Source of the DNA: Brevundimonas sp.
GTDB taxonomy: Bacteria; Pseudomonadota; Alphaproteobacteria; Caulobacterales; Caulobacteraceae
Assembly (NCBI RefSeq): GCF_013912005.1
Contig: NZ_JACESB010000002.1
Location: forward strand, 62,001 to 126,000
Reading direction: 5' to 3'
Length of the DNA stretch: 64,000 nt
Part shown: piece after piece, positions 42,830 to 48,163 of the stretch
How the letters are laid out: every line of letters starts with the position of its first letter
Position numbering within the stretch: position 1 is the first letter of the stretch
Notes under the pieces: model-generated
The model's input: the letters and a program-made list of their open reading frames with translations, nothing else
Databases searched by the model: none
Told to the model about the DNA's origin: nothing
Position numbers and translations under genes: made by a program

Positions 42830-44599
42830 TCAACGTCGCGGCTGCGGCGGGGTTCCGACGTCGGCGGGATCGACCGGGACGACGGCCTCGGGCGTGGCGA
42901 AGGTCATCCGCGCCAGGGTCCCGCCGCCCGGCGCCGCGAGGATCTCCACCTCGCCGCGCAACTGCTTGGCGAAGGCGCCCATCAGGGTGCGGCCGACGCC
43001 GGCGCGCAGGGTCTCGGTGACGCCGGGGCCGTCGTCCTCGACCTCCAGCACGCTGGTTTCGCCCTTGACCCGGAAGCGCACCTTCAGCGCGCCGCCGCGG
43101 CCGGCGAAGGCGTGCTTCTGCGCATTGGTGACCGCCTCCACCAGCCACAGGGCCAGCGGCGCCAGCTTGTCCGGATCGACGACCAGCGAATCCGCTTCCA
43201 CCGAGGAGGTCACCAGATGGCCGCGGCCGCTTTCCCCGGCGATCAGCTGCCCGACCAGCTCGGTCAGGAAGATGCGGGCGTCGGCATAGCGCAGGTCGTC
43301 GCTCTGGTAGAGGGTGCGGTAGATCAGGGCGAGGGCCGAGATGCGCTGGCGCGTGTCCCCGACGGCCGCCCTGGCGGGCTCGTCCTTCAGCGCCCGCTGC
43401 TGCATCGACAGCAGCGAGGAAATGATCTGCAGGTTGTTCTTCACCCGGTGGTGGATCTCGCGCATCAGCGCGTCCTTCTCCGCCAGCGAGGCGAGCAGGG
43501 CGGCGTCGCGGGTGGTGATGGTCTCGGCCAGGTCGTCGAGGGTGCGGGCGAGCACGCGAATCTCCGCCGGCGCGTTGACGGCCTGGACCGGGCGGACGGT
43601 GAAGCGCCCGCGGGCGTAGATGGAGGCGACCCGCTCCAGATAGTCCAGCCAGCGGACGATGATGCGCTCACTGACCAGCATCACCATGGCGAAGGCGGCG
43701 AGCCAGGCGGCGAGCGGAAGCAGCAGCAACCCGACCGGATTGAGTCGCGCCCACGACAACAGGCCCGGCGCCGGGGCCGACAGCAGGGCGTAGACGTCCC
43801 GTCCCGCCAGCGCCGCGCCGGCGAACACCCGACGCCCGTCCGCCGTATCGGCCTCGAACACCGCCGACCCGCTCTCCCGCGCCCGGTCGACCCAGCCGGT
43901 GAGTCTCTTGTCGTCGGCGAGATCGAACGCCGCCCGGTTCGAGGCGGTCAGGATGGCGCCGGAGGCGTCGGTCAGCGCCGTGGCGGAGTCCGGGGGCAGG
44001 GCCGGATCGGCGACGTCCGGCTCCAGCGCCGAGAGCGGAATCAGGGCGAGCATGGCCCCGTCGAAGGCGCCGAGGGGCCGCTCGAGGCGCAGGGCGACGA
44101 TCAGGGCCGGCGGTTCGCCGGGTGCGGCCGGGGCCCGGGCGAGCACGGTGGACTCCCCGGCCCGCAGGCGCCGGAACCAGGGCGTTTCCCGGCTGCGCGT
44201 CAGCCAGGCCGGGGCGCTGCGGGACAGGCCTTCCGACGCGCAGGTGGCGGCGCCGGTGGCGGTCACCCGCGCCAGTCCGTCCAGCCCCTCGAGCCGGTTG
44301 ACCAGGGCCGTCAGGCGCGGCTGGCAGAACACCTCGAGCGCTTCCGGGCGCAGCGCCTGGAGCAGAACGCTGGCGGTGTCGAGACGGGCCTTGGCGCGGG
44401 CCGCTGTGCGCTCGGCGGCCAGCTGCAGGTCCCTGCGCCGTTCGGTGTCCTGCTCGCGGAACTGCGACTGCGCCTGAACGGCCCCCAGGACCAGGATGGG
44501 CAGCAACGCGCCCGCCATGGCGACGCCGAGGCGGAAGCGGATGCCGTGGATGCTCGGGCGGGCCAGTCCCCGGCCGAGCGCGCGTCCGAGCCGGACCAC
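42830..44599 (-). CDS. phyK: GSR sensor histidine kinase, HWE/HisKA_2 type
   Basis: The 589-residue kinase starts with GTG six bases after the ecfG stop. Membrane helices near residues 23-43 and 286-308 enclose a periplasmic sensor domain of about 240 residues (PAS/CHASE-like). A cytoplasmic HAMP-like linker leads to EIHHRVKNNLQIISSLLSMQQR, with the phosphoacceptor probably H384, and an ATPase domain with N-box VEAVTNAQKHAF and VEDDGPGV. Its place in nepR-ecfG-kinase identifies it as the PhyK that phosphorylates PhyR. The signal it senses is unknown. Confidence 0.88.
   Translation of the reverse strand: MVRLGRALGRGLARPSIHGIRFRLGVAMAGALLPILVLGAVQAQSQFREQDTERRRDLQLAAERTAARAKARLDTASVLLQALRPEALEVFCQPRLTALVNRLEGLDGLARVTATGAATCASEGLSRSAPAWLTRSRETPWFRRLRAGESTVLARAPAAPGEPPALIVALRLERPLGAFDGAMLALIPLSALEPDVADPALPPDSATALTDASGAILTASNRAAFDLADDKRLTGWVDRARESGSAVFEADTADGRRVFAGAALAGRDVYALLSAPAPGLLSWARLNPVGLLLLPLAAWLAAFAMVMLVSERIIVRWLDYLERVASIYARGRFTVRPVQAVNAPAEIRVLARTLDDLAETITTRDAALLASLAEKDALMREIHHRVKNNLQIISSLLSMQQRALKDEPARAAVGDTRQRISALALIYRTLYQSDDLRYADARIFLTELVGQLIAGESGRGHLVTSSVEADSLVVDPDKLAPLALWLVEAVTNAQKHAFAGRGGALKVRFRVKGETSVLEVEDDGPGVTETLRAGVGRTLMGAFAKQLRGEVEILAAPGGGTLARMTFATPEAVVPVDPADVGTPPQPRR
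42832..42856 (-). promoter_or_regulatory. EcfG promoter of the entericidin gene, inside phyK
   Basis: On the minus strand GGAAC (42856-42852), 16 bases and CGTT (42835-42832) match the EcfG consensus at every position. It overlaps the last codons of phyK, 42 bp before the entericidin ATG. Confidence 0.8.
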
Positions 44600-44604
44600 C
44601 GCGA

Positions 44605-45213
44605 TCAGTCCCGAACGCTGCTCAGGCGGTCTGCATCGGCGAGAATGGAGCGCATGGCGTCGCCGGCGGCGCGGCCGTCGCGAGCGTAGCCGCCCTTTTC
44701 AAGCGTGGCCTGGAGCGCCTTTCGCGCCCGTGAAACCCGGCTCTTCACGGTGCCCACGGCGCACTGGCAGATCTCCGCCGCCTCCTCGTAGGCGAAGCCG
44801 CCGGCGCCGACGAGGATCAGCGCCTCCCGCTGCTCCTCCGGCAGGGTGGCCAGGGCGAGCCGCAGCTCGTCCAGGGCCACGGGGGATTCGGGATCGTCCA
44901 CCGCGACGAGGGTGCGCTCTGCGGCTTCCTGGTCGAGCTGCGACTGGCGCCAGGAGCGGCGCTTCTCCGAATAGAACTGGTTGCGCAGGATCATGAAGGT
45001 CCACGCCTTCATGTTGGTGCCCATCTGATAGCTGGCGCGGGCGTCCCACGCCTTCATCATGGCGTCCTGGGCCAGGTCGTCCGCGGCGGTGGGGTCGCCG
45101 GTCAGGGTGCGCGCAAACGCCCGCAGGTGCGGGATCAGCCCGACGAGCTCCTTCTTGAAGGCGTCGTCGTCTGCGGAAGGAGGCTTGGGCGGCGGGTTCG
45201 TCGCACCGCTCAT
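44605..45213 (-). CDS. ecfG: General stress ECF sigma factor EcfG/SigT
   Basis: The 202-residue ECF sigma factor has a region 2 (FKKELVGLIPHLRAFARTLTGDPTAADDLAQDAMMKAWDARASYQMGTNMKAWTFMILRNQFYSEKRR) and a region 4 (ALATLPEEQREALILVGAGGFAYEEAAEICQCAVGTVKSRVSRARKAL) typical of EcfG (ECF15). It directs RNA polymerase to GGAAC-N16-CGTT promoters and is held by NepR until PhyR is phosphorylated. The start overlaps nepR by four bases (ATGA). It is called sigT in Caulobacter. Confidence 0.96.
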   Translation of the reverse strand: MSGATNPPPKPPSADDDAFKKELVGLIPHLRAFARTLTGDPTAADDLAQDAMMKAWDARASYQMGTNMKAWTFMILRNQFYSEKRRSWRQSQLDQEAAERTLVAVDDPESPVALDELRLALATLPEEQREALILVGAGGFAYEEAAEICQCAVGTVKSRVSRARKALQATLEKGGYARDGRAAGDAMRSILADADRLSSVRD

Positions 45214-45404
45214 GCGCCGCCCTCGCCGGAGGACCGCTTGTCGGCCCGCCGGAGGATTTCGAGGAACTCGTCCGGCACCGGTTCGTTCACGACTTCATCG
45301 AACATATGCCGCAGCTTGACGCCGATAGCCTGCTGACGAAGGCGCGCTTCCTCCAGGCCGGCCCCCTTGGGCGGCTTGCCCGGCGGGTTGGTTTGGTCTG
45401 TCAT
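45210..45404 (-). CDS. nepR: Anti-sigma factor NepR
   Basis: The 64-residue protein carries the two NepR helices: LRQQAIGVKLRHMFDEVVNEPVPDEFLEILRRADK. It binds EcfG in unstressed cells and is captured by phosphorylated PhyR. The ATG at 45404 is preferred over a longer frame that reads through the promoter. The stop overlaps the ecfG start, which keeps anti-sigma and sigma amounts linked. An exact EcfG promoter lies 42 bp upstream, giving autoregulation. Confidence 0.94.
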   Translation of the reverse strand: MTDQTNPPGKPPKGAGLEEARLRQQAIGVKLRHMFDEVVNEPVPDEFLEILRRADKRSSGEGGA

Positions 45405-45445: not shown

Positions 45446-45470
45446 AACGCCAGCCTGCCTGGACGGTTCC
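45446..45470 (-). promoter_or_regulatory. EcfG promoter of nepR-ecfG-phyK
   Basis: On the minus strand GGAAC (45470-45466), 16 bases, CGTT (45449-45446), a perfect consensus. It lies back to back with the phyR promoter. Confidence 0.9.
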
Positions 45471-45511: not shown

Positions 45512-45536
45512 GGAACCGTGGCGGATTTGATACGTT
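45512..45536 (+). promoter_or_regulatory. EcfG promoter of phyR
   Basis: GGAAC (45512-45516), 16 bases, CGTT (45533-45536), a perfect consensus 57 bp before the phyR ATG. Confidence 0.9.
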
Positions 45537-45593: not shown

Positions 45594-46388
45594 ATGAGCC
45601 TGCTGGCCCGCCTTGCGCCACACCTTCCCTACGTCCGTCGCTACGCGCGGGCGCTGACCGGCGACCAGACCACCGGCGACAACTACGTCCGGGTGGCGCT
45701 GGAGGCGCTCGCCGCGGGCGAACGGCAGCTGCCCGCCGACATGACGCCGCGGGTCGCCCTCTACCACGTGTTCCACGCCATCTGGGCCTCGACGGGCGCC
45801 CGGCTTGAGGACAAGAGCGGCATCGACAACCGCGACGATCCGTCGAACCGGCTGATGCGGATCGCTCCGCGCTCGCGGCAGGCGTTCCTGCTCACCGCGC
45901 TGGAAGGGTTCACGCCTTCGGAAGCCGCCCAGATCCTCGACGCCGACGCCCAGGACGTCGAGCGGCTGATCGGAGAGGCCCAGGCCGACATCGACGCCGA
46001 ACTGGCCACCGACGTGCTGATCATCGAGGACGAGGCGATCATCTCGGCCGACATCGAGAGCCTGGTGAAGGAGCTCGGTCACCGGGTGACCGGCACGGCC
46101 ACCACCCACGACGAAGCGGTCGACGCCGTGGCCCGCCACCGGCCGGGCCTGGTGCTGGCGGATATCCAGCTGGCCGACGGCTCCTCGGGCATCGACGCGG
46201 TCAAGGACATCCTGAAGCGGATCGACGTGCCGGTGATCTTCATCACCGCCTTCCCCGAGCGCCTGCTCACCGGCGAGCGGCCGGAGCCGACCTTCCTGAT
46301 CACCAAGCCCTTCCAGCCTGAGACGGTGAAGGCGGCGATCAGCCAGGCGCTGTTCTTCCATCCGTCCCGCCAGAAGGCCGCCGCCTGA
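45594..46388 (+). CDS. phyR: General stress response regulator PhyR
   Basis: The 264-residue anti-anti-sigma factor has an N-terminal sigma-like domain (residues 1-130: HLPYVRRYARALTGDQTTGDNYVRVALEAL, then LEGFTPSEAAQILDADAQDVERLIGEA). A C-terminal receiver domain follows, with acidic pocket IIEDEAIIS, phosphoacceptor D190 in VLADIQLADGSSG, the Thr in FITAFPERL and the Lys in ITKPF. Phosphorylation exposes the sigma-like domain to bind NepR and free EcfG. It is divergent from nepR and followed by a strong terminator. Confidence 0.97.
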   Translation: MSLLARLAPHLPYVRRYARALTGDQTTGDNYVRVALEALAAGERQLPADMTPRVALYHVFHAIWASTGARLEDKSGIDNRDDPSNRLMRIAPRSRQAFLLTALEGFTPSEAAQILDADAQDVERLIGEAQADIDAELATDVLIIEDEAIISADIESLVKELGHRVTGTATTHDEAVDAVARHRPGLVLADIQLADGSSGIDAVKDILKRIDVPVIFITAFPERLLTGERPEPTFLITKPFQPETVKAAISQALFFHPSRQKAAA

Positions 46389-46462: not shown

Positions 46463-46831
46463 TTAGCGGTCTTCCACCGGCTCGGACATCACCGTCGGCG
46501 CGTTGACGTTGGGGGCGTCCCCGGTGGGCGGCGAGGTCGGCTCGCCGGTGGCGGTGGTCGGCGCGTCGGCGGTCGGGATCTCGCGCGCCGCCTCGCCCTG
46601 GAAGGCGGCGGCGTCGACCGCCTGGTCGCCGTCGTTGGCGTTGGTCTCGGCCAGCCGGCCGGCCGAGGCGAAATAGATCACCGCGAACGCGATCACGACC
46701 ATGCCGATGGCCCCGAACAGCACCATCATGATGCGCTTTCCGCCCCGGCCCTGGCGGGCGTACTGCGCCTCGACGGGCCGCCCCTCGTGGACGGCGTCGG
46801 CGGATTTGTCGTGCGGAGATTCGTGGCTCAT
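46463..46831 (-). CDS. Single-pass membrane protein, probable GSR target
   Basis: I do not recognise a named family. The 122-residue protein has a charged cytoplasmic N-terminus (MSHESPHDKSADAVHEGRPVEAQYARQGRGGKR), one membrane helix at about residues 34-55 (IMMVLFGAIGMVVIAFAVIYFA), and a disordered Ala/Pro/Thr tail outside. GGGAGGCGATCC precedes the ATG. An exact EcfG promoter lies 36 bp upstream, divergent from the gsrN-like RNA, so it is almost certainly stress-induced. Its job is unknown. Confidence 0.78.
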   Translation of the reverse strand: MSHESPHDKSADAVHEGRPVEAQYARQGRGGKRIMMVLFGAIGMVVIAFAVIYFASAGRLAETNANDGDQAVDAAAFQGEAAREIPTADAPTTATGEPTSPPTGDAPNVNAPTVMSEPVEDR

Positions 46832-46866
46832 GGATCGCCTCCCGGTTCGTTGGGTCAGGCCTGATC

Positions 46867-46891
46867 AACGGGCCGCGAGCGTCGCCGTTCC
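46867..46891 (-). promoter_or_regulatory. EcfG promoter of the membrane protein gene
   Basis: On the minus strand GGAAC (46891-46887), 16 bases, CGTT (46870-46867), a perfect match 36 bp from the start codon at 46831. Confidence 0.85.
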
Positions 46892-46929
46892 GGACTCGCC
46901 GGGCGCGCGAAAAAAATCCCCGACCCGCC

Positions 46930-46954
46930 GGAACCCCGGGGCGGGACCTCCGTT
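46930..46954 (+). promoter_or_regulatory. EcfG promoter of the gsrN-like RNA
   Basis: GGAAC (46930-46934), 16 bases, CGTT (46951-46954), a perfect match. The next plus-strand ORF lies 187 bp away behind a terminator, so the direct product is the short RNA below. Confidence 0.85.
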
Positions 46955-46959
46955 ATCGG

Positions 46960-47076
46960 ACTGCGGAGGCGGCGACGCCCCCCCGACTTGAGACTGGCGA
47001 AAGCCGGTCTGTCGCCTCCGCACCTCATTCTCGATGATGCCACTTCAGGCGGACCTTCGGGTCCGCCTTTTTCTTT
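46960..47076 (+). ncRNA. gsrN: GsrN-like general stress small RNA
   Basis: An exact EcfG promoter is followed about 115 bases later by a strong terminator, with no ORF between. The predicted RNA folds well. Stem TGCGGAGGC (46962-46970) pairs with GCCTCCGCA (47014-47022). It encloses an unpaired C7 run (46978-46984) and an 8-bp hairpin with a GAAA tetraloop (46991-47010). A single-stranded linker (47023-47046) leads to a UUCG-capped terminator. Caulobacter GsrN is a SigT-dependent sRNA whose C-rich 5' loop pairs with mRNAs such as katG. The C7 loop, promoter and position beside phyR-nepR-ecfG fit that RNA. The 5' end is inferred. Confidence 0.75.
47047..47076 (+). terminator. Terminator of the gsrN-like RNA
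   Basis: AGGCGGACC-TTCG-GGTCCGCCT, a 9-bp stem with an extra-stable UUCG loop, followed by TTTTCTTT. Confidence 0.92.
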
Positions 47077-47140
47077 GCCGCTGGACAGGCTGCCGGGGCG
47101 CGGCACTATGCGCGTCCACAAAGAAAACCCGGAGGATCCG

Positions 47141-48163
47141 ATGGCCCGAACCAATCGTCAGTGGGTGCTGCGTCAGCGGCCGATGGGGCTGATCAAGCCC
47201 GGCGACCTCGAACTGGTCGAAAGCGCGCTGCCGGAGCCGGGCGAGGGCGAGGTGCTGGTCCGCACCGTCTACCTGTCGCTGGATCCGACCAACCGCACCT
47301 GGATGAACGACGTCGAGGGCTATCTGCCGCCGGTGCCGCTCGGCGGCGTGATGCGGGGCCTCACCCTCGGCGTGGTCGAGGAGAGCCGATCGGACCGCTT
47401 CGCCGCCGGCGACGTGGTGACCACCGCCGCCGGCGGCTGGTCGGACTATGCGGTGGTGTCGGCGCGCGAGGCCTCCCGGGTGCACCGCGCCCCGGGCCTG
47501 CCGCTGACCGCCAACATGTCGGTGCTCGGCATGACCGGCATGACCGCCTGGTTCGGCGTCACCGACGTGCTGAAGCCGCAGCCGGGCGAGACGCTGGTGA
47601 TCTCCGCCGCCGCCGGGGCGGTGGGCTCGATCGCCGGCCAGGTGGCCAAGGCCCATGGCGCCCGGGTGATCGGCATCGCCGGCGGACCGGACAAGTGTCG
47701 CTGGCTGACCGAGGAGCTCGGCTTCGACGCGGCGGTCGACTACAAGAACGAGGACGTCGGCGACGCCCTCGACCGCCTCGCCCCGGATGGCGTCGAGATG
47801 AATTTCGAGAACGTCGGCGGCGACATCATGATCGCCGTGTTCAACCGGCTGAAGGTGCACGGCCGCATGGCCGTGTGCGGCCTGATCTCTTCCTACAACG
47901 CCACGCGCATGCCGCCGGCCCCGAACTTCGGCCGGATCATCACCCACCGGCTGAACCTGCGCGGCTTCCTCGTGCTCGACTATGCGCCGCGGGCGAAGGA
48001 GATGGTGACGGGGATGGCGCCGATGGTGCTGGACGGCCGCATCAAGTGGAAGGTGCACGTCGACGACGGGCTGGAGGGCGCGCTGGATTCGCTCAACCGC
48101 TTGTTCACCGGCGACCACGACGGCAAGCTGCTGGTGCGGGTGTCGGAAGAGCCGGCCGCCTGA
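47141..48163 (+). CDS. NADP-dependent oxidoreductase, zinc-free MDR family
   Basis: The ATG at 47141, after GGAGGATCCG, gives 340 residues. A frame open further upstream crosses the sRNA and terminator and is rejected. The protein belongs to the CurA/leukotriene B4 12-hydroxydehydrogenase branch: RPMGLIKPGDLELVESALPEPGEGEVLVRTVYLSLDPTNRTWM, then MSVLGMTGMTAWFGVTDV and the nucleotide motif AAAGAVGSIAGQVAKAHGARVIGIAGG. No zinc ligands are present. Likely substrates are alpha,beta-unsaturated carbonyls. A hot-dog protein gene follows 16 bp later. Confidence 0.92.
   Translation: MARTNRQWVLRQRPMGLIKPGDLELVESALPEPGEGEVLVRTVYLSLDPTNRTWMNDVEGYLPPVPLGGVMRGLTLGVVEESRSDRFAAGDVVTTAAGGWSDYAVVSAREASRVHRAPGLPLTANMSVLGMTGMTAWFGVTDVLKPQPGETLVISAAAGAVGSIAGQVAKAHGARVIGIAGGPDKCRWLTEELGFDAAVDYKNEDVGDALDRLAPDGVEMNFENVGGDIMIAVFNRLKVHGRMAVCGLISSYNATRMPPAPNFGRIITHRLNLRGFLVLDYAPRAKEMVTGMAPMVLDGRIKWKVHVDDGLEGALDSLNRLFTGDHDGKLLVRVSEEPAA

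Follow-up and report, generated by a model that had tools for sequence, protein, structure and literature searches.

The general stress response locus of a Brevundimonas genome

The stretch of DNA analysed here (the window; 64,000 nt) comes from a Brevundimonas genome of 2.89 Mb in 42 contigs and carries a general stress response (GSR) locus, with the following genes and features.

42830..44599, minus strand: phyK, sensor kinase (NF051872, 880.7 bits, over cut-off)
44605..45213, minus strand: ecfG/sigT-type ECF sigma factor (Sigma70_r2 and r4_2 matches)
45210..45404, minus strand: nepR, anti-sigma factor (NF051865, 116.2 bits, over cut-off)
45594..46388, plus strand: phyR, PhyR anti-anti-sigma response regulator (NF006623, 380.6 bits, over cut-off)
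46930..46954, plus strand: EcfG (sigma-T type) promoter, GGAAC-N16-CGTT, exact match
46963..47074, plus strand: gsrN, small RNA of the GsrN family, about 112 nt (RF01529 match 46965-47068; exact ends inferred)
46963..46973, plus strand: 5' strand of an 11-bp closing stem, pairing with 47011-47021 (57-sequence alignment)
46978..46987, plus strand: exposed C7-GAC loop, the presumed mRNA-pairing seed (from the conservation of CCCCCGAC)
46991..47010, plus strand: GAAA-capped hairpin (7/8 pairs changed on both sides)
47011..47021, plus strand: 3' strand of the closing stem (same covariation as the 5' strand)
47022..47046, plus strand: single-stranded linker with a conserved UCUCGAUGAU, a possible second contact (from genus counts)
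47047..47074, plus strand: UUCG-capped intrinsic terminator and U tail (9-bp stem with T-tail)
47141..48163, plus strand: oxidoreductase (ADH_N_2 domain match), 3' of the RNA and outside the RNA unit

No EcfG-specific model matched the ECF sigma factor above its own cut-off, and the name ecfG is therefore given from its position beside nepR and phyR. Measured from the start of the RF01529 match (46965), the distances to the RNA are 0.58 kb for phyR, 1.56 kb for nepR, 1.75 kb for ecfG and 2.37 kb for phyK; an earlier note on this DNA had placed the RNA within 1.4 kb of ecfG, nepR and phyR, which is true for phyR only, the actual range being 0.58-1.75 kb. Nearness to these genes, typical of GsrN but not required, is thus present at this locus.

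Exact EcfG-type promoters also stand before nepR-ecfG (45446-45470, minus strand) and before phyR (45512-45536, plus strand), an arrangement that would fit a GSR locus regulating itself. Between phyR and the RNA, a gene on the minus strand (46463-46831) encodes a 122-aa protein with a hydrophobic stretch (judged by eye) and no Pfam or NCBIfam match. It has an exact EcfG-type promoter of its own (46891-46867, minus strand), and is likely an additional EcfG-controlled gene. ORFs resembling it occur in 28 of the 85 locus stretches retrieved, 16 of these 28 being from Brevundimonas.

A conserved promoter precedes a covarying structured RNA

The perfect GGAAC-N16-CGTT promoter described earlier is exact at 46930-46954, which places an EcfG/SigT consensus at the RNA start, as in the GsrN/RF01529 family; judging by this promoter, transcription of the window gsrN would depend on EcfG. 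To assess conservation we used 84 loci (83 relatives and the window; one spurious locus, L116, was excluded). An exact GGAAC-N15..17-CGTT falls in the 48 nt before the RF01529 match at 45 of the 84 loci, compared with 49 of 8400 random stretches from the same loci. A further 34 loci differ by one -10 base (the random control covers the exact form alone); of the remainder, four read GGAAC..CATT by eye and one is cut by a contig end.

The segment 46963-47074 is predicted to fold at -56.5 kcal/mol (z -5.2), and none of 200 shuffles folds as well. The C7 tract, the GAAA-capped hairpin, the linker and the UUCG-capped terminator are all present as earlier described, while the closing stem, previously called 9 bp, has in fact 11 bp (46963-46973 with 47011-47021). 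In the loop, the C7 tract is followed by GACUUGA, and the window copy has the layout of its family: a 5' stem around an exposed C-tract, a hairpin and a terminator.

We examined covariation in an alignment of the 59 loci that scored at least 50 bits and were at most 93% alike, less the short L107 and L109, leaving 57 rows. Across these rows 97.4% of cells in the 5' domain are paired, a figure that falls to 32-52% when the controls are slid; of its 19 pairs, 13 changed on both sides, and 0 of 500 shuffles did as well on any measure. Within this domain the closing stem is paired in 99.8% of cells, with 6 of 11 pairs changed on both sides, and the GAAA-capped hairpin in 94%, with 7 of 8. Terminator cells are 87% paired, against 31-57% when slid, and 8 of 9 pairs changed on both sides, a count of 8 that 1 of 500 shuffles also reaches. 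The earlier description of this stretch as holding no ORF was loose, as mechanically called ORFs overlap the RNA (for example 46701-46991 and 46988-48163, both plus strand); the compensatory changes in the stems speak for an RNA at 46963-47074.

Conservation extends to the loop. CCCCCGAC is found in all 57 aligned copies and in 83 of the 84 loci overall, the exception being in genome G118, and the C-tract ranges from 5 to 14 nt in the 57 rows, mostly 7 or 8. A Phenylobacterium copy (L095, genome G108) carries the expanded tract of 14 Cs. The covariance search and alignment of relatives that the earlier note had called for thus found both the stems and the C-run conserved.

Counted by genus, the linker sequence UCUCGAUGAU occurs at 20 of the 22 loci in Brevundimonas, 12 of the 16 in Phenylobacterium and 2 of the 22 in Caulobacter; it is possibly a second pairing site or an Hfq site.

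At 66 of the 84 loci phyR is found no more than 1.6 kb upstream of the RNA and in the same orientation. Of the other 18, five have the end of a contig at a distance of about 1 kb or less, and four are Caulobacter copies (genomes G130, G077, G134 and G096), in line with the distal position reported for C. crescentus gsrN (PMC5869019).

The RNA is a member of RF01529 and a GsrN homologue

When the whole window was scanned with Rfam, the sole match over a curated cut-off was RF01529 ("CC3552") at 46965-47068, which scored 107 bits against a cut-off of 50 (E 1.2e-16). The match is full length and shows no notable difference from the family. SorY (RF02651) matched the 3' part weakly (21.7 bits against a cut-off of 111), and the RNA is not a member of that family.

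To compare RF01529 with GsrN we used the 46 distinct predicted GsrN-binding strings in Table 1 of PMC5869019, paired with the Caulobacter copy in genome G130, one of the two top-scoring RF01529 copies. Of these strings 31 pair full length with the G130 copy, where 1000 shuffles of that copy give a mean of 5.6 and a maximum of 19, and 13 are exactly complementary (shuffles: mean 0.39, maximum 6); GUCGGGGGGCGUC, for instance, is the complement of GACGCCCCCCGAC in G130. The window copy pairs fully with 14 of the 46, a number inside the shuffled range of G130, and exactly with 7. Together with the anatomy, these strings indirectly indicate that RF01529 is GsrN.

The resemblance to GsrN of Caulobacter crescentus (ccna_R0081), as presented in PMC5869019, extends to the EcfG/SigT promoter, the hairpin, the terminator, Caulobacteraceae descent and an exposed C-tract loop in the 5' stem, with six Cs in C. 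crescentus and seven in the window copy; the C-rich loop is there described as the most conserved part of GsrN. The same source reports that C. crescentus GsrN is processed to a stable 5' isoform, the full-length form being stabilised by Hfq, and that gsrN typically lies near ecfG/nepR/phyR, the distal C. crescentus gene being the exception. The window gsrN, which adjoins these genes, differs in this from its C. crescentus counterpart, as it does in carrying the linker UCUCGAUGAU, present at so few Caulobacter loci.

The reading of this RNA as a GsrN homologue at the GSR locus is borne out by what we observe directly: covariance-model family membership, the promoter sequence and its conservation, the predicted fold with its covarying stems, the conserved C-tract and synteny. 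It is also already known, with BLASTn homologues of GsrN reported in Caulobacter, Brevundimonas and Phenylobacterium (PMC5869019). The label "orphan" was accordingly wrong, as both the GsrN paper and Rfam cover the RNA. In the literature searched, CC3552 and sRNA appear jointly in no paper, the accession RF01529 appears in none, and PMC5869019 was the sole match for GsrN with Brevundimonas.

Distribution in Caulobacteraceae

RF01529 matched at E<=0.001 in 84 of 149 family genomes, 79 of them over the cut-off. Among 14 named control genomes it was found in Caulobacter vibrioides only, and in an order sample, which overlaps the family sample, in 52 of 299 genomes, all Caulobacteraceae. We also searched 385 genomes of the class with R1, a model of our own; its three matches are all to Brevundimonas genomes, the window's own included. 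Applied to 24 of the 65 RF01529-negative family genomes, R1 recovered a weak copy each in G028 and G127. Taken over many genomes, the covariation and promoter evidence confirms that GsrN is widespread in the general stress response of Caulobacteraceae.

GsrN-like RNAs have also been proposed in Rhizobiaceae and other groups on the basis of an EcfG promoter, locus and exposed loop (PMC5869019), all of which the window RNA has in common with them; R1 gave no sign of a sequence relation in the 385-genome class sample, where it matched Brevundimonas only.

The copy in G127 (L304, contig C1, 2349925-2350024, minus strand; R1 39.3 bits) is a Brevundimonas copy with phyR and the oxidoreductase beside it. 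Its EcfG promoter is exact, and both the conserved linker and the terminator are kept, but its 5' domain has lost the C5-GAC tract; the katG search gave no match in this genome either.

Among the listed DNA-pattern matches in named genomes, those in Actinoplanes (L163) and two Bryobacterales (L176 and L185) were set down to chance, because neither RF01529 nor R1 matches there; three unplaced MAG records in the same list (L152, L160 and L180) have RF01529 over the cut-off. The excluded L116, a second RF01529 match in genome G078 (35 bits), lies antisense within a pyrB-like gene (by eye) and has neither C-tract nor promoter. Comparable weak second matches occur in G376, G381 and G386.

A probable trans-acting RNA of the general stress response

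We consider it very probable that Brevundimonas GsrN is a trans-acting sRNA of about 112 nt, transcribed by EcfG under stress, whose C-loop pairs with G-rich mRNA. By homology, stress would activate PhyK and PhyR, upon which NepR would release EcfG; EcfG-RNA polymerase would then transcribe gsrN, and the exposed C7-GAC(UUGAG) loop in the 5' stem would pair with G-rich stretches of mRNA, presumably altering their translation or stability. For Brevundimonas, we infer transcription, EcfG dependence and target pairing by analogy with C. crescentus (PMC5869019).

The RNA could instead be a cis-acting leader, an attenuator or riboswitch, of the oxidoreductase gene, which starts on the same strand 73 nt 3' of the RNA match and adjoins the RNA at 19 of 22 Brevundimonas loci. 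However, the RNA is closed by an intrinsic terminator, and it is kept at 62 other loci, beside none of which the oxidoreductase was found (0/62); the gene neighbours the RNA in Brevundimonas alone, which speaks against the RNA being its leader, and we regard this reading as highly improbable. That the signal arises from a chance fold of GC-rich intergenic DNA behind a chance promoter might be entertained on the grounds that GGAAC-N15..18-CGTT is matched exactly at five more places in the window, two of which fall within coding sequence (six observed in all against 1.16 expected). This idea can be practically dismissed: it is refuted by the stem covariation, and both the E-value of the RF01529 match and the conservation of the promoter before the RNA stand against it.

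The katG leader site and the targets of GsrN in Brevundimonas

In C. crescentus, the GsrN loop pairs with GUCGGGG at the 5' end of katG mRNA, as proved by katG(RS)/gsrN(RS) swaps (PMC5869019). With this pairing proven, and katG present in the window's genome, GsrN might here too act mainly through the katG leader and raise KatG, a link drawn in the earlier note. We searched 44 genomes for katG, of which 42 carry gsrN by RF01529 (all except G107 and G127), and obtained a match in 35, partial only in G135. Thirty of these 35 matches have loci and yielded upstream stretches, including 18 from Brevundimonas, one of which (G107) has no gsrN match. In these stretches, each covering 170 nt before the family match with the first codons included (a longer leader could hold a site), GTCGGGG occurs in none of the 18 from Brevundimonas, in 3 of the 11 from Caulobacter and not in the only one from Phenylobacterium. 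Moreover, katG gave no match in 8 of the 42 gsrN-bearing genomes (G092, G035, G101, G006, G074, G093, G007 and G009). The stretch CAAGTCGGG lies within the katG coding sequence of the window's genome; just 6 of the 18 Brevundimonas have it. We preferred the string count for this question since duplex energies were uninformative, with z between -1.7 and 1.7 even for the GTCGGGG-bearing G130 and G077.

The GTCGGGG counts and the gsrN-bearing genomes that lack katG therefore make katG leader pairing look specific to some Caulobacter; unlike in C. crescentus, the scanned Brevundimonas stretches have no leader site. Control of katG in the window's genome probably does not run through the C. crescentus leader site, and we think it unlikely that GsrN acts here mainly through that leader. 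The one proven target site of GsrN is thus not conserved outside some Caulobacter. Over Caulobacteraceae as a whole, GsrN may have kept its C-loop and EcfG control while its target set was rewired in Brevundimonas, so that mRNAs other than katG carry the stress function, perhaps with the UCUCGAUGAU linker as a second seed; we hold this to be plausible, if slightly short of an even bet.

Neither a loop-complement search nor a leader comparison found a conserved alternative target in Brevundimonas. The loop complement AAGTCGGGGG occurs genome-wide at 6, 8 and 7 places in G000, G147 and G037, one place in each being the RNA gene itself in antisense; there is no excess, because the reversed pattern is more frequent (10, 10 and 8 places). 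Missing from the other 4 of the 7 Brevundimonas orthologues found, the loop-complementary GAAGTCGGGG stands 18 nt before a TTG start in three close species (L275:1564, L277:1500 and L284:1500), ahead of a gene that by eye resembles a hybrid histidine kinase, and offers a weak lead to a candidate GsrN target.
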